Positions 2,806 through 61,142 of a DNA stretch of 64,000 nucleotides are shown in pieces. The position numbers were made by a program, and so were the translations under genes. Each line of letters starts with the position of its first letter. Positions within the stretch are counted from its first letter, which is position 1. Source of the stretch: Streptomyces sp. SCUT-3 (GTDB taxonomy: Bacteria > Actinomycetota > Actinomycetes > Streptomycetales > Streptomycetaceae); contig NZ_CP046907.1 in assembly GCF_014083985.1 (NCBI RefSeq), forward strand, positions 5,280,501 to 5,344,500, read 5' to 3'. The notes under the pieces were generated by a model. That model did not search any database. It was not told the DNA's origin and saw nothing but the letters and a program-made list of their open reading frames with translations.

Positions 2806-3623
2806 GGATCTGGATCGACGGCGGCCTGCGTGACGCCGGCAGCGCCACCGTCTCCGTGTTCGACCACGGGCTGACGGTCGGCGACGGAGTCTTCGAGACG
2901 GTCAAGGTCGTGGAGGGGGCCGCCTTCGCGCTCACCCGCCACCTCGACCGCCTGGCCCGCTCCGCGAGCGGCCTCGGCCTTCCCGAGCCCGACCTCGACG
3001 AGGTGCGCCGGGCCTGCGCCGCCGTCGTGGAGGACAACCCGCTGCCGCTGGGCAGGCTGCGCATCACCTGCACCGGCGGGGTCTCCCCGCTGGGTTCCGA
3101 CCGGGGCGACGCCGCCCCCACCCTGGTCGTCGCACTCGGCGAGGCCGCCCCGCGCCCGGCCACCACCGCCGTGGTGACCGCCCCGTGGGCCCGCAACGAG
3201 AAGAGCGCGGTCACCGGCCTGAAGACCACCTCCTACGCGGAGAACGTGGTCGCCCTGGCCCACGCCCGCCGGGCGGGGGCGAGCGAGGCGCTGTTCGGCA
3301 ACACCGCCGGGCGGCTGTGCGAGGGCACCGGCTCCAACGTCTTCGTCGTCCTGGACGGCCGGCTGCTCACCCCGCCGCTCGCCTCCGGGTGCCTGGCCGG
3401 CATCACCCGCGAACTGGTCCTGGAGTGGACCGGCGCCCAGGAGGCCGACCTGCCGCTGGAGGTGCTCCAGCAGGCCGAGGAGGTCTTCCTCACCTCCACC
3501 CTGCGCGACGTGCAGGCCGTCCGCCTCGTCGACGGCCGGGAACTGCCGGGCGCCCCCGGCCCGGTCACGGCCAAGGCGATGCGGGTCTTCGACGAGCGCA
3601 GCGGCGCCGACCTCGACCCGTGA
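2802..3623 (+). CDS. pabC: Aminotransferase class IV, 4-amino-4-deoxychorismate lyase-like
   Basis: A 273-residue fold-type IV PLP enzyme. The start MRIWIDGG and DHGLTVGDGVFETVKV are typical of PabC/IlvE/DAAT. The PLP lysine is K141 in LKTTSYAEN, and EGTGSNVFVV plus LASGCLAGITRE form the phosphate-binding cup. It would split aminodeoxychorismate into p-aminobenzoate and pyruvate. The GTG overlaps the TGA of the chorismate-binding gene and GAAGGGA lies upstream, so the two should be translationally coupled. A branched-chain or D-amino-acid aminotransferase role cannot be excluded from sequence, but the gene pair favours PabC. Confidence 0.85.
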   Translation: MRIWIDGGLRDAGSATVSVFDHGLTVGDGVFETVKVVEGAAFALTRHLDRLARSASGLGLPEPDLDEVRRACAAVVEDNPLPLGRLRITCTGGVSPLGSDRGDAAPTLVVALGEAAPRPATTAVVTAPWARNEKSAVTGLKTTSYAENVVALAHARRAGASEALFGNTAGRLCEGTGSNVFVVLDGRLLTPPLASGCLAGITRELVLEWTGAQEADLPLEVLQQAEEVFLTSTLRDVQAVRLVDGRELPGAPGPVTAKAMRVFDERSGADLDP

Positions 3624-8087: not shown

Positions 8088-8159
8088 GGGCGATTAGCTC
8101 AGTGGGAGAGCGCTTCGTTCACACCGAAGAGGTCACTGGTTCGAACCCAGTATCGCCCA
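8088..8159 (+). tRNA. tRNA-Val(CAC), copy A
   Basis: Cloverleaf with acceptor GGGCGAT/ATCGCCC, D arm TAGCTCAGTGGGAGAGC, anticodon stem CTTCG/CGAAG around loop TTCACAC (anticodon CAC), T arm GGTTCGAACCC, discriminator A; CCA not encoded. TAGTGT at 8069-8074 is a possible -10. Identical over all 72 bases to the copy at 11528. Confidence 0.96.
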
Positions 8160-8167
8160 CCCGGACC

Positions 8168-8271: not shown

Positions 8272-11200
8272 TCAGCGCATCCGGCCCAGGGCGGCCCGCA
8301 CCCGGCGCGCGTCGCGCAGCCGCTGCTCGTACCGTGATCCCAGGGCCAGGAGCAGGAGGCCGACCAGGGCGGGGACCACCCAGCGCGGCAGGGCGTCCAC
8401 CACCTGCACGACGTACGGGGCCAGCTCGTGCAGCACGTCCAGCGCCAGCACCGCACCGCCCAGCAGCAGCGGGGCCTGGAGCCGGTGGCGCGCGCCGACC
8501 AGCGTCACCACGAGGGCGGCGGCGCCGAGCAGCAGCGGGCGCAGCCAGTGCGCGTCGCCCCAGGCGGCGGCCAGGCTCGGCAGCAGGGTCACCGACAGGC
8601 CGGGCCCGTACGACGTCCACGAGGAGGCCGTGGCGTCCCTGCGCCGCCGCAGCGCGCCGACCAGCAGGGCGGGCACGGTCACCGGCAGGGTGTACGCCTC
8701 CGGGGCCTCCACGTCCCAGGCCGCCAGGCGCACCCAGCTCGCCGCCACCAGCAGGGCGGTCGCGGCCCAGGCCGCCCGCCGCCGGTCCTCGCGCAGGGCT
8801 ACGCCGCCCGCCACCACGCCGGCCAGCGCCAGGACCGTGGCCAGGGCCGTGGCGTCGCCCGCGGCCAGGGCCACCGCGAGCGCGGCCACCGCACCGGCCG
8901 CGCACTCCACGGCGGGCCCCGCCGGCTGCGCACGCAGGCGGAGTGCGAGGAACTCGCCCGCCGCGGCCACCGCGAGGACGGCGAACGCCGCCTGGTGGGC
9001 GGCCGCCCCGAGGCCCAGCGGCACCGCCCAGGCCAGCCCGGCGGCGCAGAGCACCGCGGCCGGGGCACCGACCGTGCGGGGGGCCGTGCGGGGCGCCGTG
9101 CGGGGGGAGAGCAGCGCCGTCCCGGCGAACACGGCGAGCAGCAGGCCCAGGGCCAGGTGGGTCATCGGCCGCTCGGCCAGGGACCAGGCCGCGGCCGTGA
9201 CGGCGAGCACCGCCCCCGAGGCCGACGCGGCCCGGGCCGGGCCGGTCGCCTCCAGGACCGCGGCCGCGGACAGCGCCACGGCCGCGAGCGCCACCAGCAG
9301 CACCACGGCCACGGCGTACGGGAGGTCGAGCGCCACCGGCAGCACCCCGGCGGCCCCGGCGGCGAAGCCGACGGCGCCGCAGCCGGCGGCGGTACGGGCC
9401 GCAGCGGCACGGGGAACCCGGGTGCGCAGGTCCGCGGCGCGGGCGCCGGGCGGCGGGGCGGAACCCTCCCCGGCGGCGGCCGGGCCAGGCCCCGCGGCCT
9501 CCGCTGGCAGGAACCGGCGTGCCGCGGCGAGGACCGCGGCGGTCACCGCCAGCACCACCGGCACCGACACGGACCAGCCCCGGGCCTCGACCCATGCGGC
9601 GCCCGAGGAGGTGAAGGCCCGCGCCGCGCCGCGCGGAGCGCCGCTCCACGGGTCCCCGGCCCAGGAGAGCGGCCCCAGCAGGGCGGCGGCCGTCAGCGGC
9701 AGCACCAGCAGCACGCACAGGGCGTGCACCGCGGCCGCGGCCGACCCCAGGCCCCCGCGGACCGGCCGGGGCAGCCCCGCGCGGGCGGCGGGCAGTGCGA
9801 CGGCGGCGAGGAGGGCGACCGCCCACCCCAGGACGGCGGTCACGTCCAGGCCCGGGGGCGTCAGACGGGCGGTGAAGCCGCCGCACGCCACGAGCACGGC
9901 CAGCCCCGCCGTGCCGGAGAGCAGCCGCGCGGCCACGGCGGAGGCGCCTGCCCCCGGTGCGCCCGCCGGCAGGCCCGCGGCCTTCCACCGCCCGGGGGCA
10001 CCGGCTGTCCCGGAGGCCCGGGGCGCACCGGGAACGCCGGACGCACCGGGAACGCCGGACGGGCCCGGGAGGCCGGGCACTCCCGGCGCGCCGGTCCGGC
10101 CGGACGGAGCGGAGGGGCCGGAGGGCGCCTGCCAGGGGGCCGGCCGGACGCCCGCACCGGGCGCCGGGGGCTCCGGGGCGCGCTGCGGCCGCAGCACGAG
10201 GCGCCACGCGGCGCCGAGCGCGACCGCCGCCCCCGCGAGGAGCAGACCGCCGCCTCGGGCGCTCCCGGCGAGCGTCCCGGCGGACGCCACCACGGCCGCG
10301 GCGGTGAGCAGCGCGGGCCCGCCGGAGACCACCGCCGTGACCGCCGCGGTGGTGCGCACCGCCCTGCCGCCGGAGCGGAAGGCCAGGACGGTGTCCGCGG
10401 CGGCCGTGCCGAGGAGGGCCGCGGCCCAGCCGGCGGCGTCCGCCCCGGCGGCCAGGGCCCACAACGGCAGCGGGAGCTGCGCCAGGCACACGGCGACCGG
10501 TGCGGGCAGCCGCAGCCCGCGCCGGGCCCGGGGCCCCGCGGCCGGGGCCGCCGTTCCGCCCGCGCTCTTCCCCGTCTCCTTGCCCCCGGTCCCGGTCCCG
10601 GTCCCGGTCGCGGCCGGGGCGAGGCGCGAGGTGAGGGCGCCGTACCCGGCCCACCCGGCGGAGAGGACCGCCGCGGCGCCGGCCGCGTACCCCGTGCCCG
10701 GCAGGTGCGGCAGGGCGACCGCGTGCAGTGCGTAGGCGTCCAGGAACAGCAGCACCAGGGCCAGGCAGGCGACGACCTCGGCCGTCGCGGCCAGGCCCCG
10801 GCGCAGCAGCAGCACCGGGGTGCCCAGGGCGACCAGGGTGACGGCCGAGAGGACCGCGGCCCGGCCGGCTATGCCCATGCTGCCCCAGCTGACGACGGTG
10901 AAGACCACCGCGGCCACCGCCAGCAGCACCCCGCCCAGGGCGAGCAGCAGGTTCTGCACGGTGGGCGCCGAGGTCTCGCGCTGAGTCCGCGCCGGACCCG
11001 CCCACCGCGCGGGGCCGACCGCGGCAGGACCGGCAGCGGGGACGGGGGCAGCGGTGCCGGGGGCGGCCGGCGGGCCGGGCGTCCGCAGGGCGGCGAGCAA
11101 CTGCGCGCGCCGTGTCAGCAGGCGGGTTCGCTCGGCGTCCATGCGGGCCAACGCGGTGTCGACGTGCCACAGTTCGGCGGCCTCCGGGCCGGCGAGCCGC

Positions 11201-11298
11201 AGCGCGCACGCAGGGCAGGCGGCCGGGCTGCCGGCGGGCGGGAGGGGCGCGCCGCACCCGGGGCAGCGGGACGGGGACGGCGGCGGGACGGTGCTCAT
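8272..11298 (-). CDS. Large polytopic membrane protein, SCO7613-like, with N-terminal zinc ribbon
   Basis: 1008 residues. The N-terminus has CPGCGAPLPPAGSPAACPAC, a zinc ribbon, then a helical segment with ALARMDAERTRLLTRRAQLL, then more than 20 alanine/leucine-rich membrane spans. A non-membrane insertion contains Gly-X-Y collagen-like repeats (minus strand across about 9990-10110). It resembles the streptomycete proteins annotated as SCO7613 C-terminal domain-containing membrane proteins, whose function is unknown. ATG 11298 is chosen because it begins just before the ribbon; the frame runs further upstream but that part is arginine/proline-rich noise. It is bracketed by identical tRNA-Val genes on the other strand. 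Confidence 0.82.
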   Translation of the reverse strand: MSTVPPPSPSRCPGCGAPLPPAGSPAACPACALRLAGPEAAELWHVDTALARMDAERTRLLTRRAQLLAALRTPGPPAAPGTAAPVPAAGPAAVGPARWAGPARTQRETSAPTVQNLLLALGGVLLAVAAVVFTVVSWGSMGIAGRAAVLSAVTLVALGTPVLLLRRGLAATAEVVACLALVLLFLDAYALHAVALPHLPGTGYAAGAAAVLSAGWAGYGALTSRLAPAATGTGTGTGGKETGKSAGGTAAPAAGPRARRGLRLPAPVAVCLAQLPLPLWALAAGADAAGWAAALLGTAAADTVLAFRSGGRAVRTTAAVTAVVSGGPALLTAAAVVASAGTLAGSARGGGLLLAGAAVALGAAWRLVLRPQRAPEPPAPGAGVRPAPWQAPSGPSAPSGRTGAPGVPGLPGPSGVPGASGVPGAPRASGTAGAPGRWKAAGLPAGAPGAGASAVAARLLSGTAGLAVLVACGGFTARLTPPGLDVTAVLGWAVALLAAVALPAARAGLPRPVRGGLGSAAAAVHALCVLLVLPLTAAALLGPLSWAGDPWSGAPRGAARAFTSSGAAWVEARGWSVSVPVVLAVTAAVLAAARRFLPAEAAGPGPAAAGEGSAPPPGARAADLRTRVPRAAAARTAAGCGAVGFAAGAAGVLPVALDLPYAVAVVLLVALAAVALSAAAVLEATGPARAASASGAVLAVTAAAWSLAERPMTHLALGLLLAVFAGTALLSPRTAPRTAPRTVGAPAAVLCAAGLAWAVPLGLGAAAHQAAFAVLAVAAAGEFLALRLRAQPAGPAVECAAGAVAALAVALAAGDATALATVLALAGVVAGGVALREDRRRAAWAATALLVAASWVRLAAWDVEAPEAYTLPVTVPALLVGALRRRRDATASSWTSYGPGLSVTLLPSLAAAWGDAHWLRPLLLGAAALVVTLVGARHRLQAPLLLGGAVLALDVLHELAPYVVQVVDALPRWVVPALVGLLLLALGSRYEQRLRDARRVRAALGRMR
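10024..10059. repeat. 2 x 18-bp perfect tandem repeat inside membrane protein gene
   Basis: CGCACCGGGAACGCCGGA occurs twice in a row. It encodes part of the Gly-X-Y collagen-like insertion of the membrane protein on the minus strand, suggesting that the insertion grew by tandem duplication. Confidence 0.75.
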
Positions 11299-11455
11299 AC
11301 CGGCCGAGTGTCCTCCCCGGGCGGGGGCGCCGCATGACGCGGGGTACTCAGGGTCTTCTGAGTACCCCGTCCCGGCGCGGAGCGCCCCCGCCGGGACGCA
11401 CCGGCCGGGACGCACCGGCGGGGCCGGGGGGCGGACGTGCCGCGGGCGGCGCCGT

Positions 11456-11485
11456 TTGAACACCGCGCCGTGATCCCTGTATTGT
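11456..11485 (+). promoter_or_regulatory. Promoter of tRNA-Val copy B
   Basis: -35 TTGAAC at 11456-11461 and -10 TATTGT at 11480-11485 with 18-base spacing, the best vegetative promoter match in the window. A short inverted repeat (GTGCCG...CGGCAC) lies in the leader before the tRNA at 11528. Confidence 0.65.
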
Positions 11486-11527: not shown

Positions 11528-11599
11528 GGGCGATTAGCTCAGTGGGAGAGCGCTTCGTTCACACCGAAGAGGTCACTGGTTCGAACCCAGTATCGCCCA
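11528..11599 (+). tRNA. tRNA-Val(CAC), copy B
   Basis: Sequence identical to the gene at 8088-8159 (acceptor GGGCGAT, anticodon CAC, no encoded CCA). The flanks differ completely between the copies: different promoter, leader and terminator, so the duplication covers only the tRNA body. Confidence 0.96.
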
Positions 11600-11607
11600 C
11601 GCCCCGA

Positions 11608-16561: not shown

Positions 16562-18760
16562 TCACTCCGCGGACTCCGCCGCCGTCACCTTCGCCGCCAG
16601 CTGCGGCGGCATCGGCTCGTGGCGCGCGTAGGCCCGGTCGAAGCTGCCGCTCCCGTGCGAGAGGGAGCGCAGGTCGACGGCGTACCGGTCGATCTCGACG
16701 CCGGGGACCTCGGCCTGCACGCAGGTGCGGCCGCCCTGGACGGGCTCGGTGCCCAGCACCCGCCCGCGGCGGCCGGACAGGTCGCTCATCACCGGCCCCA
16801 CGTACTCGTCGGGGACCACGACCCGCACCCGGTCCACCGGCTCCAGCAGCAGGATCCGGCTGCCGGCGGCCGCCTCCCGCAGGGCCAGGGCACCCGCGGT
16901 CTGGAAGGCGGCGTCGGAGGAGTCCACCGAGTGGGCCTTGCCGTCGACGAGGGTCACCCTGATGTCGACCACGGGGTGGCCGGTCGCCACGCCCCTGGCC
17001 ATCTGGGCCCGCACGCCCTTCTCCACGGAGGGGATGAACTGCCGGGGCACGGCGCCGCCGACGACCCGGTCCACGAACTCGAAGCCGGCGCCGGTGGGCA
17101 GGGGCTCCACCTCGATCTCGCAGATCGCGAACTGCCCGTGCCCGCCGGACTGCTTGACGTGCCGGCCGCGGCCGGACGCCCGCGTCGCGAAGGTCTCCCG
17201 CAGCGGCACCCGGTGCGGCACGGCGTCCACGGCCACCCCGTAGCGGGTGCGCAGCCGCTCCAGCAGCACGTCCGCGTGCGCCTCGCCCATGCACCACAGC
17301 ACGATCTGGCCGGTGTCCGGGCTGCGCTCCAGGCGCATCGTCGGGTCCTCGGCGACCAGTCTGGCGAGCCCCTGGGAGAGCCGGTCCTCGTCGGCCCTGC
17401 CGTGGGCGCGGACGGCGACCGGCAGCAGCGGCTCCGGCATCGGCCACGGCTCGATCAGCAGCGGGTCGTCGGCCGCCGAGACGGTGTCGCCGGTCTCCGC
17501 GCAGGTCAGCCTGGCCACGGTGGCCAGGTCCCCGGCGACGCACTTGGCCACGGTGTGCTGCTGCCTGCCGAAGGGGACGGACAGCGTGCCGATCCGCATG
17601 TCCTCGTCGTGGTCGACGTGGCCGCGCTCGGCCAGGCCGTGGCCGGAGACGTGCACGGTCTCGTCCGGGCGCAGGGTCCCGGAGAACACCCGCACCAGGC
17701 TGACCCGGCCGACGTAGGGGTCGGAGGAGGTCCGCACCACCTCGGCGGCCAGCGGCCCTTCGGGGTCGCAGGCCAGGGGCGCGTGCGGTTCGCCGCGCAC
17801 GGTGGTGACGGCGGGCGACGGCCGCTCGGGCGGGCCGGGGAAGCCCCGGGTCACCAGTTCCAGCAGCTCCACGGTCCCCAGGCCGTGCCGGGACCCGTCG
17901 GCGGCCGGCGCCGCGGCCAGCACCGGGTGGAAGTCGCCGCGGGCGACGGCCCGCTCCAGGTCCTCGAGCAGCATCTTCGGGTCGAGTTCCTCACCGGAGA
18001 GGTAGCGGTCCATGAGGGTCTCGTCCTCGCTGCCGGCGATGATCCCCTCGATGAGCGCCGCGCGGGCCTGCTCCAGAGCGGGCGCCAGGCCCGGATCGGG
18101 ATCGCCCGCGGCCCGCTCCCCGGAGGAGTAGTCGTACGCCCGCCGGTCCAGCAGGGCGGCCAGCCCGGTCACCGGCCGGTGGCCGTCCGCGGCCGGGGCG
18201 CCGTGCAGCGGCAGGTGGAGGGGGAGCAGGGTGTCGGGGCGGTCGCCGCCGAGGACGTCGCGGCAGCTCTCCACGGTCTCGTCGAAACCGGCCCGCTCCG
18301 ACTCCAAATGGGTGACCACGACGGCCCGCGGCATGGTCACGGCCGCGCACTCCTCCCACAGCGTCCGGGTGGCGTCGTCCACGCCGTCCGCGGCCGAGAC
18401 GACGAACAGCGCCGCGTCCGCGGCCCGCAGCCCGGCCCTCAGTTCCCCGACGAAGTCGGCGTACCCGGGGGTGTCCAGCAGGTTGACCTTGACGCCGTCC
18501 CAGGCGACGGGGACCAGCGACAGCTGCACCGAGCGGTGCCGCCGCTGCTCGGTCTCGTCGTAGTCCGAGACGGTGGTGCCCTCCTCGACCCGCCCGGCCC
18601 GGTTGACCGCGCCCGCGGTCAGGGCCAGGGCCTCGACCAGCGTCGTCTTGCCCGTGCCGCTCGGGCCGACCAGCGCGACGTTGCGCACGGTGTCGGGCCG
18701 GTCGGCCACCGGTACCCTGCCGGCGGCTCCGGGACGGTTCTCACTCCTGTTGTCGGCCAT
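16562..18760 (-). CDS. Elongation factor G-like protein (EF-G2 / FusA2-type)
   Basis: 732 residues with the five-domain EF-G architecture. The G domain has a P-loop G32-PSGTGKTT, DTPGYADF (G3, residues 96-103) and THLE at 150-153 where EF-G has NKxD (G4). The switch I RGITI is replaced by RHRSV. EF-G domains II-V follow, including VRVVVPDEYVGPVMSDL and GRRGRVLG near the C-terminus. ATG 18760 is seven bases after GGAGG. The housekeeping fusA normally lies in the str operon, so this is the paralogue of unproven role (mycobacterial FusA2 type). It is divergent from pgsA. Confidence 0.92.
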   Translation of the reverse strand: MADNRSENRPGAAGRVPVADRPDTVRNVALVGPSGTGKTTLVEALALTAGAVNRAGRVEEGTTVSDYDETEQRRHRSVQLSLVPVAWDGVKVNLLDTPGYADFVGELRAGLRAADAALFVVSAADGVDDATRTLWEECAAVTMPRAVVVTHLESERAGFDETVESCRDVLGGDRPDTLLPLHLPLHGAPAADGHRPVTGLAALLDRRAYDYSSGERAAGDPDPGLAPALEQARAALIEGIIAGSEDETLMDRYLSGEELDPKMLLEDLERAVARGDFHPVLAAAPAADGSRHGLGTVELLELVTRGFPGPPERPSPAVTTVRGEPHAPLACDPEGPLAAEVVRTSSDPYVGRVSLVRVFSGTLRPDETVHVSGHGLAERGHVDHDEDMRIGTLSVPFGRQQHTVAKCVAGDLATVARLTCAETGDTVSAADDPLLIEPWPMPEPLLPVAVRAHGRADEDRLSQGLARLVAEDPTMRLERSPDTGQIVLWCMGEAHADVLLERLRTRYGVAVDAVPHRVPLRETFATRASGRGRHVKQSGGHGQFAICEIEVEPLPTGAGFEFVDRVVGGAVPRQFIPSVEKGVRAQMARGVATGHPVVDIRVTLVDGKAHSVDSSDAAFQTAGALALREAAAGSRILLLEPVDRVRVVVPDEYVGPVMSDLSGRRGRVLGTEPVQGGRTCVQAEVPGVEIDRYAVDLRSLSHGSGSFDRAYARHEPMPPQLAAKVTAAESAE

Positions 18761-19089
18761 GTGCGCGCCTCCGCATCACCGCGTCGGGGCCTGCCCCGCT
18801 GCGAACGGGCGTCCTACGGTGCCGCACAGGCGGCCGGCGCCCGCGGTTGTCCTTCGAGCTTTCCACGCGGGTGCGCCCGCGTCCACGGAGAGCCGTTCCG
18901 CACCCGCTGCGGGCGGACGTGCCGGTACCCGCCGCCGACGCCTTCCCGCTTCACCCGCACGGCGGTGGCTACGATGGCCCAGGCTCCCGACGGGAAGCCG
19001 GCCCGTGCGGACGGCCCGGCCCGGACCCGGCGGGGGCCGCGCCGGTGGCCGACGTGGCCGCACGGCCCCTGTCGACCTCCGGGAAGGCC
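18761..19089. other. Divergent intergenic region, EF-G2 / pgsA
   Basis: 329 bases between the two divergent start codons. It holds a TACGAT -10 box at 18970-18975 reading toward pgsA and an in-frame GTG at 19045 that would extend PgsA by 15 residues. I see no RNA gene or other ORF with a credible start here. Confidence 0.5.
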
Positions 19090-19758
19090 ATGCTCAACAA
19101 GTACGCGCGTGCATTCTTCACGCGTGTCCTCACGCCGTTCGCCGCCCTGCTGCTGCGGATGGGGGTCAGTCCCGATGCGGTCACCCTCGTCGGCACCGCC
19201 GGGGTGATGGCGGGCGCGCTGGTCTTCTTCCCCTCCGGGGAGTTCTTCTGGGGCACGATCGTCATCACCCTCTTCGTCTTCTCCGACCTGGTCGACGGGA
19301 ACATGGCGCGGCAGTCGGGCCGCTCCAGCCGCTGGGGCGCCTTCCTCGACTCCACCCTGGACCGTGCGGCCGACGCGGCGGTCTTCGCGGGCATCGCCCT
19401 GTGGTACGCCGGCCGCGGCGACGACCTGCTCCTGGTCGGCCTGGCGATCTTCTGCCTGGCGAGCGGCCAGGTGGTCTCCTACACCAAGGCACGGGGCGAG
19501 AGCCTGGGCATGCCGGTGAACGTCTCCGGCCTGGTGGAACGGGCCGAGCGGCTGGTGATCACCCTGGTCGCGGCGGGCCTGTCCGGCCTGCACGCCTTCG
19601 GCGTCCCCCACGTGCAGGTGCTGCTCCCGGCCGCCCTGTGGATCGTCGCCGTCGGCAGCGCGGTGACCCTCGGGCAGCGGGTGGTCACGGTGCGCCGGGA
19701 GGCCGCGGAGGCCGACGCCGCCGGCCCCGGCCCCGGCAGCCCGGAGGGCGCCCGGTGA
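19090..19758 (+). CDS. pgsA: Phosphatidylinositol phosphate synthase (CDP-alcohol phosphotransferase)
   Basis: 222 residues, multi-pass membrane enzyme. The CDP-alcohol signature is complete: D66-x2-D69-G-x2-A-R-x8-G-x3-D87-x3-D91. It transfers phosphatidyl from CDP-diacylglycerol to inositol phosphate, the first step of phosphatidylinositol and PIM synthesis in actinobacteria. The downstream genes (acyltransferase, then PimA), joined by GTGA and TTGA overlaps, make the assignment to PI rather than PG synthesis secure. Start taken at MLNKYARAFF; GTG 19045 is possible and GGGAAGG precedes the ATG closely. Confidence 0.92.
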   Translation: MLNKYARAFFTRVLTPFAALLLRMGVSPDAVTLVGTAGVMAGALVFFPSGEFFWGTIVITLFVFSDLVDGNMARQSGRSSRWGAFLDSTLDRAADAAVFAGIALWYAGRGDDLLLVGLAIFCLASGQVVSYTKARGESLGMPVNVSGLVERAERLVITLVAAGLSGLHAFGVPHVQVLLPAALWIVAVGSAVTLGQRVVTVRREAAEADAAGPGPGSPEGAR

Positions 19759-56118: not shown

Positions 56119-56312
56119 CGGGCGGGCGGGGCGCGGCCGTCCGGCATCGGGCCGCCGCCCCGCCCCCGCTCCTGCCGCCGACCGGTGCTGACCGGCGGGT
56201 TCGGCCGCGTCCGGTTCACACAACTGTCGCTGGGAACGGTACCGTTCGGTGTCGCCCGGCCAGTTCGGCCGGGCGCTCGGCGACATCGCCCGGACAGGAC
56301 GGAGTGGGGCAG

Positions 56313-57163
56313 ATGCAGCACGCTGCGGGGATGCCGTTGCCACATCCTCCAGGCGCCCCCCGGGGCGGCGCGGGCGGCTGGGGCCCTCCCGCCGCCGGAG
56401 GCGGTGCGCCGCCGTCCGGGCCGTCCGGCTTCCCCGGCCCCGCCGTCCCCCCGGTCCCGCCCGCGCCGCCGTCCGCGGCCCCGCCCGCGCCGCCCCGGGC
56501 GGCCGCCGGGGTCACGGGGCCTTCCCGCTGCAGCAGCCCGCACCGGTGCCCCCGCCCGCCCCCGCCGGCCCTCCCGGGCCCGGCGGGCCGGCGCACGGCG
56601 CCCCCGCCCCGGTGGCGGTGCTGCTGATAGGGGCGGCCGGAGCGGGCAAGACCACCATCGCCCGCCACTGGGCCGACCACCGGCCGGCCCCCACCGCGCA
56701 CATCAGCCTCGACGACGTCCGCGAGTGGGTGCGGTCCGGCTTCGCCGACCCGCAGTCCGGCTGGAACGAGCACAGCGAGGCCCAGTACCGGCTGGCCCGC
56801 CGCACCTGCGGCTTCGCCGCCCGCAACTTCCTGGCCAACGGCATCTCCTGCATCATCGACGACGCGGTCTTCCCCGACCGCCCGGCGGTGGGCCTGGGCG
56901 GCTGGAAGCGGCACGTGGGGCCGGGACTGCTGCCCGTGGTGCTGCTGCCGGGCCTGGAGGTCGTCCTGGCCCGCAACGCCGAGCGCACCGGCAACCGCAG
57001 GCTCTCCGACGAGGAGGTGGCCCGCATCCACGGCCGGATGGCCGGCTGGTACAGCTCAGGGCTGCCGATCATCGACAACTCGCAGCTGGACGTGGTGGCC
57101 GCGGCCGAGGCGCTGGACCGGGTCGTGGCCCGGGCCCTCGCGGGCCCGCCCGCGGCCGGCTGA
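56313..57163 (+). CDS. P-loop ATP-binding (AAA/kinase-like) protein with apparent frameshift
   Basis: The expected start ATG 56313 (MQHAAGMPLPHPPGAPRGG, after GGAGTGGGG) reads a Pro/Ala/Gly-rich region that runs out of frame; the conserved part (HGAFPLQQPAPVPPP, Walker A LLIGAAGAGKTT, HISLDDVREWVRSGF, SDEEVARIHGRMAGWYSSGL) is in the frame one base earlier and ends at 57163. The crossing point is GGGG at 56508-56511: one more G would join both halves. Either a sequence indel or a real mutation; alternatively translation starts inside, for example GTG 56249 or GTG 56546 in the second frame. The kinase-like core is intact. Function unknown; conserved in streptomycetes beside aroQ as I recall. 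Confidence 0.7.
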
Positions 57164-59546: not shown

Positions 59547-60995
59547 GTGAGCGACGACGAGATCCTGCGCAGCCTCCACGCCCTGCGCGAGGGCGACCTG
59601 CCCGTGCACGGCGGCCGCACCATGGCCTACGTCTACGACGCGGGCCTGGACGGGGTCGACGAGCTCGCCGCGCGCGCCCACGCCGCGTACGCCGGCGTCA
59701 ACGGCCTGGACATGACCGCCTTCCCCAGCGTCGTGAAACTGGAGAACGAGGTGGTCGGCCGCGCCGCCGCCCTCCTGGGCGGGAACGCGGCCACCGCGGG
59801 CACGTTCACCAGCGGCGGCACCGAGAGCTGCCTGCTGGCCGTGCTGACCGCCCGCAACCACGCCCGCCGCACGCGGGGCGTGCACCGCCCCGAGCTGGTC
59901 CTGCCCGTGACCGCGCACGCCGCCTTCCACAAGGCCGCCGACCTGTTCGGCCTCGAGGCGGTCACCGTCGGCGTCGACCCGGACACCTTCCGGGTGCGCC
60001 CCGAGGACGTGGCCGCCGCGATCACCGACCGCACCGTCCTGGTCGTGTGCTCCGCCCCCTCGTACGCCCACGGCGTGGTCGACCCGGTCGCCGGGGTCGC
60101 CGCGGCCGCGGCCGCCCGCGGCGTGCTGTGCCACGTCGACGCCTGCATCGGCGGCTGGTACCTCGGCCACCTGCGCCTCGCCCGGAACGCGCCGCCCGTG
60201 CCGGAGTTCGACCTGTCCGTGCCCGGCGTCACCTCCTTGTCGGTCGACCTCCACAAGTACGGCTACACCCCCAAGGGCGCCTCCGTCCTGCTGCTGCGCG
60301 ACGCCGAACTGCGCCGCCACGGCTGGTTCGCCCACCGCTCCTGGCCCGGCTACCCGGTCGTCAACCCCACCCTCCAGGGCACCCGGTCCGCAGGGCCCAT
60401 GGCCGCCGCGTGGGCGGTGCTGCGCCGCATCGGCACCGACGGCTACACCGAGCTGTCGGCCCGGGTGCACGCCGCCACCCGGCGGCTGGCCGACGGCGCC
60501 GGCGCGGTCGACGGCCTGCGCGTGCTCGCCGACCCGGACGCCTCCCTGGTCGCGGTCGCCTCCGACGACCCGGCCGTGGACCCGTTCGTCGTCGCCGACG
60601 AGATGCGCCTGCGCGGCTGGTACCTGCAGCCGCAGCCCGCCTTCGCCGGCTCCCCGGCCAGCCTGCACATGACGGTCACCGCGGCGGTCACCGGCCGCAT
60701 CGACCGGCTGCTGGCCGAACTGGCGGACGCGGTGCGCCGCGCCCGCGCCGCGGGACCGCCCGCCGTCGACCCCGCCCTGATCGAGGCCGCGGCCGGGCTC
60801 GACCCCGACGCACTCGGCCCCGAGGAGGCCGCCCTCGCCCTGCGGCTGGCCGGGGTGGGCGAGGACGGCGGGCTGCCGGAGCGCTCCGCGCCCGTCCTCG
60901 CCGTCCTGCAGGCCCTCCCGCCGCGCCTGGCCGAACGCCTCCTCCCCGAGGTCGTCGGCCGCATGTACCGCCCCGGCGTCCCCGGCCGCCCCTGA
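59547..60995 (+). CDS. PLP-dependent group II decarboxylase / aminotransferase-fold enzyme
   Basis: 482 residues, fold type I. TFTSGGTESCLLAVLTARNH (phosphate-binding), CSAPSYAHGVVDPVAG, HVDACIGGWY (ring-stacking Asp), and the Schiff-base lysine in SVDLHKYGYTPKGA are all present; they resemble glutamate/tyrosine decarboxylases and sphingosine-1-phosphate lyase. Substrate unknown. An extra C-terminal helical domain (residues 400-482) is rich in Leu/Ala. GTG 59547 after CCGGGAGGGACC. The stop codon lies in the first unit of the tandem repeat downstream. Confidence 0.88.
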   Translation: MSDDEILRSLHALREGDLPVHGGRTMAYVYDAGLDGVDELAARAHAAYAGVNGLDMTAFPSVVKLENEVVGRAAALLGGNAATAGTFTSGGTESCLLAVLTARNHARRTRGVHRPELVLPVTAHAAFHKAADLFGLEAVTVGVDPDTFRVRPEDVAAAITDRTVLVVCSAPSYAHGVVDPVAGVAAAAAARGVLCHVDACIGGWYLGHLRLARNAPPVPEFDLSVPGVTSLSVDLHKYGYTPKGASVLLLRDAELRRHGWFAHRSWPGYPVVNPTLQGTRSAGPMAAAWAVLRRIGTDGYTELSARVHAATRRLADGAGAVDGLRVLADPDASLVAVASDDPAVDPFVVADEMRLRGWYLQPQPAFAGSPASLHMTVTAAVTGRIDRLLAELADAVRRARAAGPPAVDPALIEAAAGLDPDALGPEEAALALRLAGVGEDGGLPERSAPVLAVLQALPPRLAERLLPEVVGRMYRPGVPGRP

Positions 60996-61105
60996 CCGGC
61001 CCCGACCGGCCCCTGACCGGCCCCGACCGGCCCCTGACCGGCCCCGACCGGCCCCTGACCGGCCCCTGACCGGCCCCTGACCGGCCCCTGACCGGCCCCG
61101 ACAGG
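60989..61105. repeat. 11-unit CCCC(T)GACCGG tandem repeat array
   Basis: Eleven head-to-tail units: seven 11-mers CCCCTGACCGG and four 10-mers CCCCGACCGG, alternating at first (a 21-bp higher unit), then four 11-mers in a row, then one diverged 10-mer (CCCCGACAGG). The first unit contains the TGA stop of the decarboxylase gene. It fills the space before the converging D-amino-acid enzyme gene. Confidence 0.92.
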
Positions 61106-61142
61106 CCCTGGCAGTCCCGACCCGCCCCGGCCGCCGGAGGAG

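Follow-up and report, generated by a model that had tools for sequence, protein, structure and literature searches.

Where does the protein of a small P-loop gene of Streptomyces sp. SCUT-3 begin, given that its conserved N-terminus and its kinase-like core are read in different frames? Either one base is missing from the assembly, or the gene has been broken, or the two frames are joined by some other route. We followed this question in a window of 64,000 nt (5,280,501-5,344,500 of the 6.08-Mb single-contig genome), and positions below are those of the window. By our own reading of the translations, the genes upstream are presumably aroC, aroK, aroB and aroQ, and those downstream are what we take to be an M24 peptidase gene, efp and nusB; the peptidase was the one neighbour checked against Pfam. 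The features on which the argument rests are as follows.

56301-56304, + strand: GGAG, Shine-Dalgarno-like, 8 nt upstream of ATG 56313
56313-56627, + strand: frame of the MQHAAG start (ATG 56313), with the conserved N-terminus and a proline-rich linker, then out of frame to TGA 56625-56627
56432-56504, + strand: imperfect 24-nt repeat, C-rich and of low complexity, within the linker
56493-56526, + strand: 95% set for the point of frame change, one base short; best point 56514 by composition, 56516-56521 favoured by the motif
56508-56511, + strand: GGGG run named in the initial annotation, seen in the sequence
56516-56519, + strand: second GGGG run; junction ..GVTG (first frame) / AFPLQQP (core frame)
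56522-57163, + strand: core frame with the remainder of the linker (FPLQQPAPV...) and the P-loop kinase-like domain; stop TGA 57161-57163
56612-56620, + strand: core-frame GTG codons 56612 and 56618 at the first beta strand (limits from the predicted model), putative internal starts
56630-56653, + strand: Walker A motif GAAGAGKT

The frame break and its position

The start at ATG 56313 and the P-loop core lie in different frames, and the DNA between them is one base short. From the ATG, the first frame reads MQHAAGMPLPHPPGAP..., then becomes Pro/Ala/Gly-rich and stays open as far as TGA 56625-56627; the core frame is open from after a stop at 56189. The frame break that had been claimed for this gene, with one more base needed to pass from the first frame to the core frame, is therefore borne out by the sequence. 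The same is true of the core, which had been described as uninterrupted in the second frame: it runs open to its stop at 57161-57163 and is under strong purifying selection. The start, the ribosome site and the linker of the window resemble those of intact relatives, in one frame up to a conserved island in the linker and in the other frame beyond it, and in many relatives the MQH start likewise has a similar GGAG box in front of it.

When the family was searched with the core, 290 of its 297 genomes gave a match, in a few cases a weak one, i.e., the gene is near-universal there. For the comparison of loci, 80 of at least 555 encoding a relative were taken from the named-genome scan; with 60 further loci added, the set came to 170 loci (160 distinct), drawn from the best-scoring ones and not at random. 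A start counted as recognised if it belonged to the MQH/MQQ/MQY type or closely resembled that type, which held for 140 of the 160 distinct loci; 11 others were cut by contig ends and nine had no recognised start. Start and core share one frame in 135 of these 140 loci from a best-scoring sample. The five exceptions are the window, Streptomyces altiplanensis (L073), S. sparsogenes (L078), S. violaceusniger (L084) and L228 (from G230). Outside the 140, six of the nine start-less loci are in frame by eye (L025, L034, L038, L099, L118, L255), and the remaining three (L102, L230, L238) carry no frame call.

This comparison with orthologues, which the initial annotation had proposed, identifies the MQH-type N-terminus as the ancestral start, as had been assumed there. 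Orthologues that begin in the second frame and lack an MQH-type start, the pattern which had been named as speaking against a frameshift, were not found; 135 of the 140 assessable loci carry the in-frame start. Intact orthologues in Streptantibioticus, Wenjunlia, Actinacidiphila, Streptomyces and Kitasatospora resemble the window in start type, linker motif and core (79-93% identical in an alignment of 30 sequences), but they form one continuous frame, whereas the window is one base short.

Among relatives, the linker between start and core varies in length from 33 to 186 codons. Most of it is of low complexity; an island of the form T-G-H-[F/V/I/L] is kept in nearly all orthologues. The island pattern matched in 153 of the 160 loci, with H third in 140 and T first in 153/153, the latter figure being partly built in since the pattern demanded T or R first or H third. 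The pattern did not catch AGHF in L206, the motif is absent from L038 and L234, and two incomplete loci (L076, L104) had no island match. In the out-of-frame locus L228, TGHV lies in the frame of its start.

We trained an amino-acid composition model of the linker on 108 in-frame orthologous linkers. Allowing a single frame switch in the linker of the window raised the score by 27.7 nats relative to a reading without one. In the 108 in-frame linkers, which had also trained the model, this gain was at most 6.0 nats, and in the four other out-of-frame loci it ranged from 19.1 to 57.9 nats. Over the whole region, the composition score of the window was -54.1 in the core frame and -11.1 in the first frame, and it rose to +16.8 once the switch was allowed. 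The frame switch in the window thus exceeds chance. Its best point in the model was 56514 (95% set, 56493-56526), and composition alone cannot separate 56508-56511 from a point just 3' of 56514-56516.

The island allows a finer placement. There, the window reads ...AAAGVTG in the first frame and AFPLQQPAPV in the core frame, and one of its nearest relatives (L010, identical in sequence to L090, Streptantibioticus ferralitis) reads ...PAATTGHFPLPPAGPV. From this comparison, the loss falls most naturally right after the Thr codon 56514-56516, which favours a base lost at the second GGGG run or the following CC, about 56516-56521. The run at 56508-56511, to which the break had been attributed, lies inside the 95% set; the motif points a few bases downstream, and the named run is probably that far upstream of the true position. 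Codon usage was discarded as a locator: the optimum was 56322-56340 with synonymous codons only and 56334 or 56457-56469 with full codon frequencies. These optima disagree with both motif and composition, and the two frames hardly differ in codon score within the linker tract.

Breaks in other loci and elsewhere in the assembly

The four other linker breaks lie, as judged by eye, at four different points of the linker. In L084 the break coincides with a C/G run that shortly precedes the island, in L073 it lies farther upstream than that, in L078 it falls in a repeat-rich part of the linker, and in L228 it is at a C run just downstream of the island. Breaks in the core were absent from all 160 loci when searched by split matches, a procedure that recovered 151 of 160 spiked deletions, and breaks in aroQ were absent from the 83 loci of the same set in which it was assessed. 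Of the 160 loci, 94 contain an almost complete M24 peptidase gene, many loci being too short to hold it, and in two of the 94 this gene is broken. These are L073, with several small private gaps at about 3530-3590, and L084, with a single one-base gap at about 3556, each relative to intact close relatives; both are also broken in the linker. The peptidase gaps therefore suggest that these two records are indel-prone assemblies. The contrast between linker (5/140) and core (0/160) gives a one-sided hypergeometric p near 0.02 by hand arithmetic, a value that takes no account of relatedness, of the two ways in which breaks were judged or of the presence of the same genomes in both counts. Such linker-biased breaks fit errors in G/C runs and tolerated real breaks about equally well.

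We also scanned 464 kb of the genome against syntenic stretches of two relatives, G015 and G134. A first scan for other breaks yielded mostly antisense and fused reading frames, and stricter rules were used later. The reading frames of G015 covered 155,445 nt and gave one candidate; those of G134 covered 107,232 nt and gave none. The candidate, at concatenated position 262261, recurs between G015 and G134 and was assigned to G015. Two candidates that arose when the genome's own reading frames were compared with G015 and with G134, one in each case, proved to be over-extended frames whose first part corresponds to an adjacent gene, read in a different frame or on the other strand, and one near 18751-19196, seen with two relatives, was attributed to the start of an overlapping gene on the opposite strand at about 19042. 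No shift unique to the window genome was therefore left in 155,445 nt of coding matches, at a sensitivity of 87 of 149 spiked single-base deletions; since the split-match scans did not flag the known linker break, this holds for conserved coding sequence only. Given these clean matches, the assembly is not grossly indel-ridden.

In a comparison with five syntenic relatives, no matches were found between 6743 and 11857. This stretch includes two tRNA-Val(CAC) genes (8088-8161 and 11528-11600), which share an identical 73-nt stretch on the same strand, 3,440 bases apart. The DNA between them has about 80% G+C and contains a single long reading frame on the minus strand (8275-11463, 1063 aa). It might have arisen as an insertion bounded by the tRNA genes, or it might represent a local gene that evolves fast.

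The kinase-like core

Searches against Pfam placed core residues 7-146 in AAA_33 (PF13671) with 40.2 bits (cut-off 27). Weaker matches were CPT (25.2 bits, cut-off 22) and Zeta_toxin (24.0 bits, cut-off 22.3), the latter over residues 3-46 only, and NCBIfam gave only a sub-cut-off match to GvpN. The Walker A consensus GxxGxGK[ST] is present as GAAGAGKT, with G11, G14, G16, K17 and T18 unchanged throughout an alignment of 30 sequences. A sequence search of solved structures with the core found Atu3015 (1zp6; 6.4e-6).

The predicted model of the core has a mean pLDDT of 81. It aligned with the putative gluconate kinase 2bdt (Z 16.8, 157 residues, 2.8 A), the APS kinase 7yq0 (Z 16.5, 161 residues, 3.2 A), Atu3015 (Z 16.3, 163 residues, 3.5 A) and the chloramphenicol phosphotransferase 1qhs (Z 15.1, 165 residues, 3.6 A). 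The predicted fold thus resembles these small P-loop kinases with Z of 15-17 over about 155-166 residues, but identity is only 11-20%. Because several families tie in Z, we name no substrate. We infer from sequence and model that the core is a small-molecule or nucleotide kinase, i.e., an ordinary small P-loop kinase. A literature search on SCO1493, which we take to be the S. coelicolor locus tag of the gene, found nothing, and a search on the operon showed nothing relevant by title among the papers listed.

The core is 93% identical to its nearest relatives. Its dN/dS is 0.06-0.11 between the window and six relatives, and 0.03-0.14 among those six. Signs of a pseudogene, such as relaxed constraint or further lesions, were not found in the core, which would look alike after a very recent lesion. 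The strong constraint therefore implies that the gene is intact in the organism, that its loss is recent, or that the core is still made.

Origin of the lost base

The comparison suggests an ordinary Streptomycetaceae protein, which would consist of a short conserved MQH... start, a disordered linker and a small P-loop kinase-like domain. The linker would be composed of Pro, Ala, Gly, His and Gln, vary in length and hold the island as its single conserved element. In the window one base is lacking in or just before this island, which puts start and domain out of frame on paper. We regard such a sporadic one-base loss in the disordered linker as the explanation with a probability of about 0.9. 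As to its cause, the odds lean slightly towards a base omitted in the reads or the assembly in a tract rich in G/C runs. If so, the gene would be intact in the cell, and the missing base presumably present in the organism.

Several results favour omission. Start and core share one frame in nearly all assessable loci, the gene has no wear elsewhere, the four other breaks lie elsewhere in the linker, and the records of L073 and L084 look indel-prone. Omissions in C/G runs are also documented for long-read Streptomyces assemblies (PMC4487206, PMC6923854). According to the accessible text of these reports, 2934 bases, mostly C or G omitted in runs of at least three, were restored in the long-read 7.9-Mb chromosome of S. 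leeuwenhoekii (PMC4487206), and in three other Streptomyces short-read-corrected and long-read-only versions differed at 70, 295 and 335 places, the vast majority being single-base insertions in homopolymers (PMC6923854). By our estimate, 70-335 differences per genome would easily yield one event in a stretch like the one scanned. The window resembles these cases, as far as they are described there, in that a single base is lost in a coding tract rich in G/C runs and a frame break results (PMC4487206, PMC6923854). It is unlike them in having no second unique break in the scanned region. Against omission, the assembly looks clean, with no unique shift in the coding matches, and the placement that best fits the motif would also allow a lost base outside any homopolymer. 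The collection contains one genome of the window's genus, so the comparison was with other genera.

A genuine, recent and private one-base deletion in the linker is possible, at clearly less than even odds. The full-length product would then be lost, with low-level core made from GTG 56546, 56612 or 56618, or the gene would be a fresh pseudogene. This is consistent with a scanned region free of genome-unique shifts, with core-frame GTG codons being present and with the range of linker lengths, which implies that the linker is dispensable in detail; the excess of breaks in the linker over the core fits it as well as it fits G/C-run errors. It has to contend with a core that lacks relaxed constraint, with a gene found almost throughout the family, and with internal GTGs that have no good ribosome site upstream. 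A further variant, in which the break is real and tolerated, appears improbable: the core would also be translated alone from GTG 56612/56618, just before TGA 56625, with the linker as an optional N-terminal module, and the breaks would arise time and again as a natural way of separating the two.

Programmed -1 frameshifting, or transcriptional slippage at the G run, would yield a short linker peptide together with the full-length kinase, and we consider it very improbable. The direction is right, and pairing at GGG 56517-56519 could survive a step back by one base, but the preceding codon (ACG to CAC) would pair poorly after such a step. A strict X XXY YYZ heptamer is absent within 56490-56530; the four that occur (56382, 56448, 56574, 56577) fall outside the 95% set and are of the kind that C/G-rich sequence yields. 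A run of four G is short for transcriptional slippage. The position is not conserved either, as by eye the four other broken loci all have their break elsewhere and 135 of the 140 are unbroken. In the accessible part of the GeneTack report, sets of programmed frameshifts rest on a conserved position and on sequence motifs near the shift (PMC3711429). The window is like the GeneTack genes described there in that two overlapping frames give one apparent protein, and unlike them in that neither a conserved shift position nor a motif was found (PMC3711429). With neither at the junction, programmed frameshifting was rejected. Of the three causes offered in the initial annotation, a sequencing indel and a true disruption both stand, and a programmed slip is disfavoured since the break is unconserved and lacks a strict heptamer. 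That there is no frameshift at all, the true start being GTG 56249, 56546, 56612 or 56618 in the core frame and the MQH reading incidental, is hardly credible: no stop interrupts the core frame after 56189, and GTG 56249 is a start that a gene caller might pick, but the MQH-type start is conserved family-wide in the frame of the core, and upstream of the island the core frame is Arg-rich, unlike orthologous linkers (Arg 1.3% of residues).

The finding is ordinary, and its use lies mostly in a caution. In a genome of more than 70% G+C, a disordered Pro/Ala/Gly-rich linker hides a lost base well, because codon statistics are blind there and the split-match scans missed the break; a linker composition model built from orthologues detected it clearly. 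An annotation should mark the gene as probably intact but mis-sequenced, and not list it as a new protein starting at GTG 56249.

Two tandem repeats were noted elsewhere in the window. An array of about six 21-nt units at 60980-61133 extends across the 3' end of the gene at 59547-60995. At 1257-1405, tRNA-Val(GAC) is tandemly duplicated as a 76-nt unit (97% alike), adjoining a third tRNA-Val(GAC), a tRNA-Cys and a tRNA-Gly.
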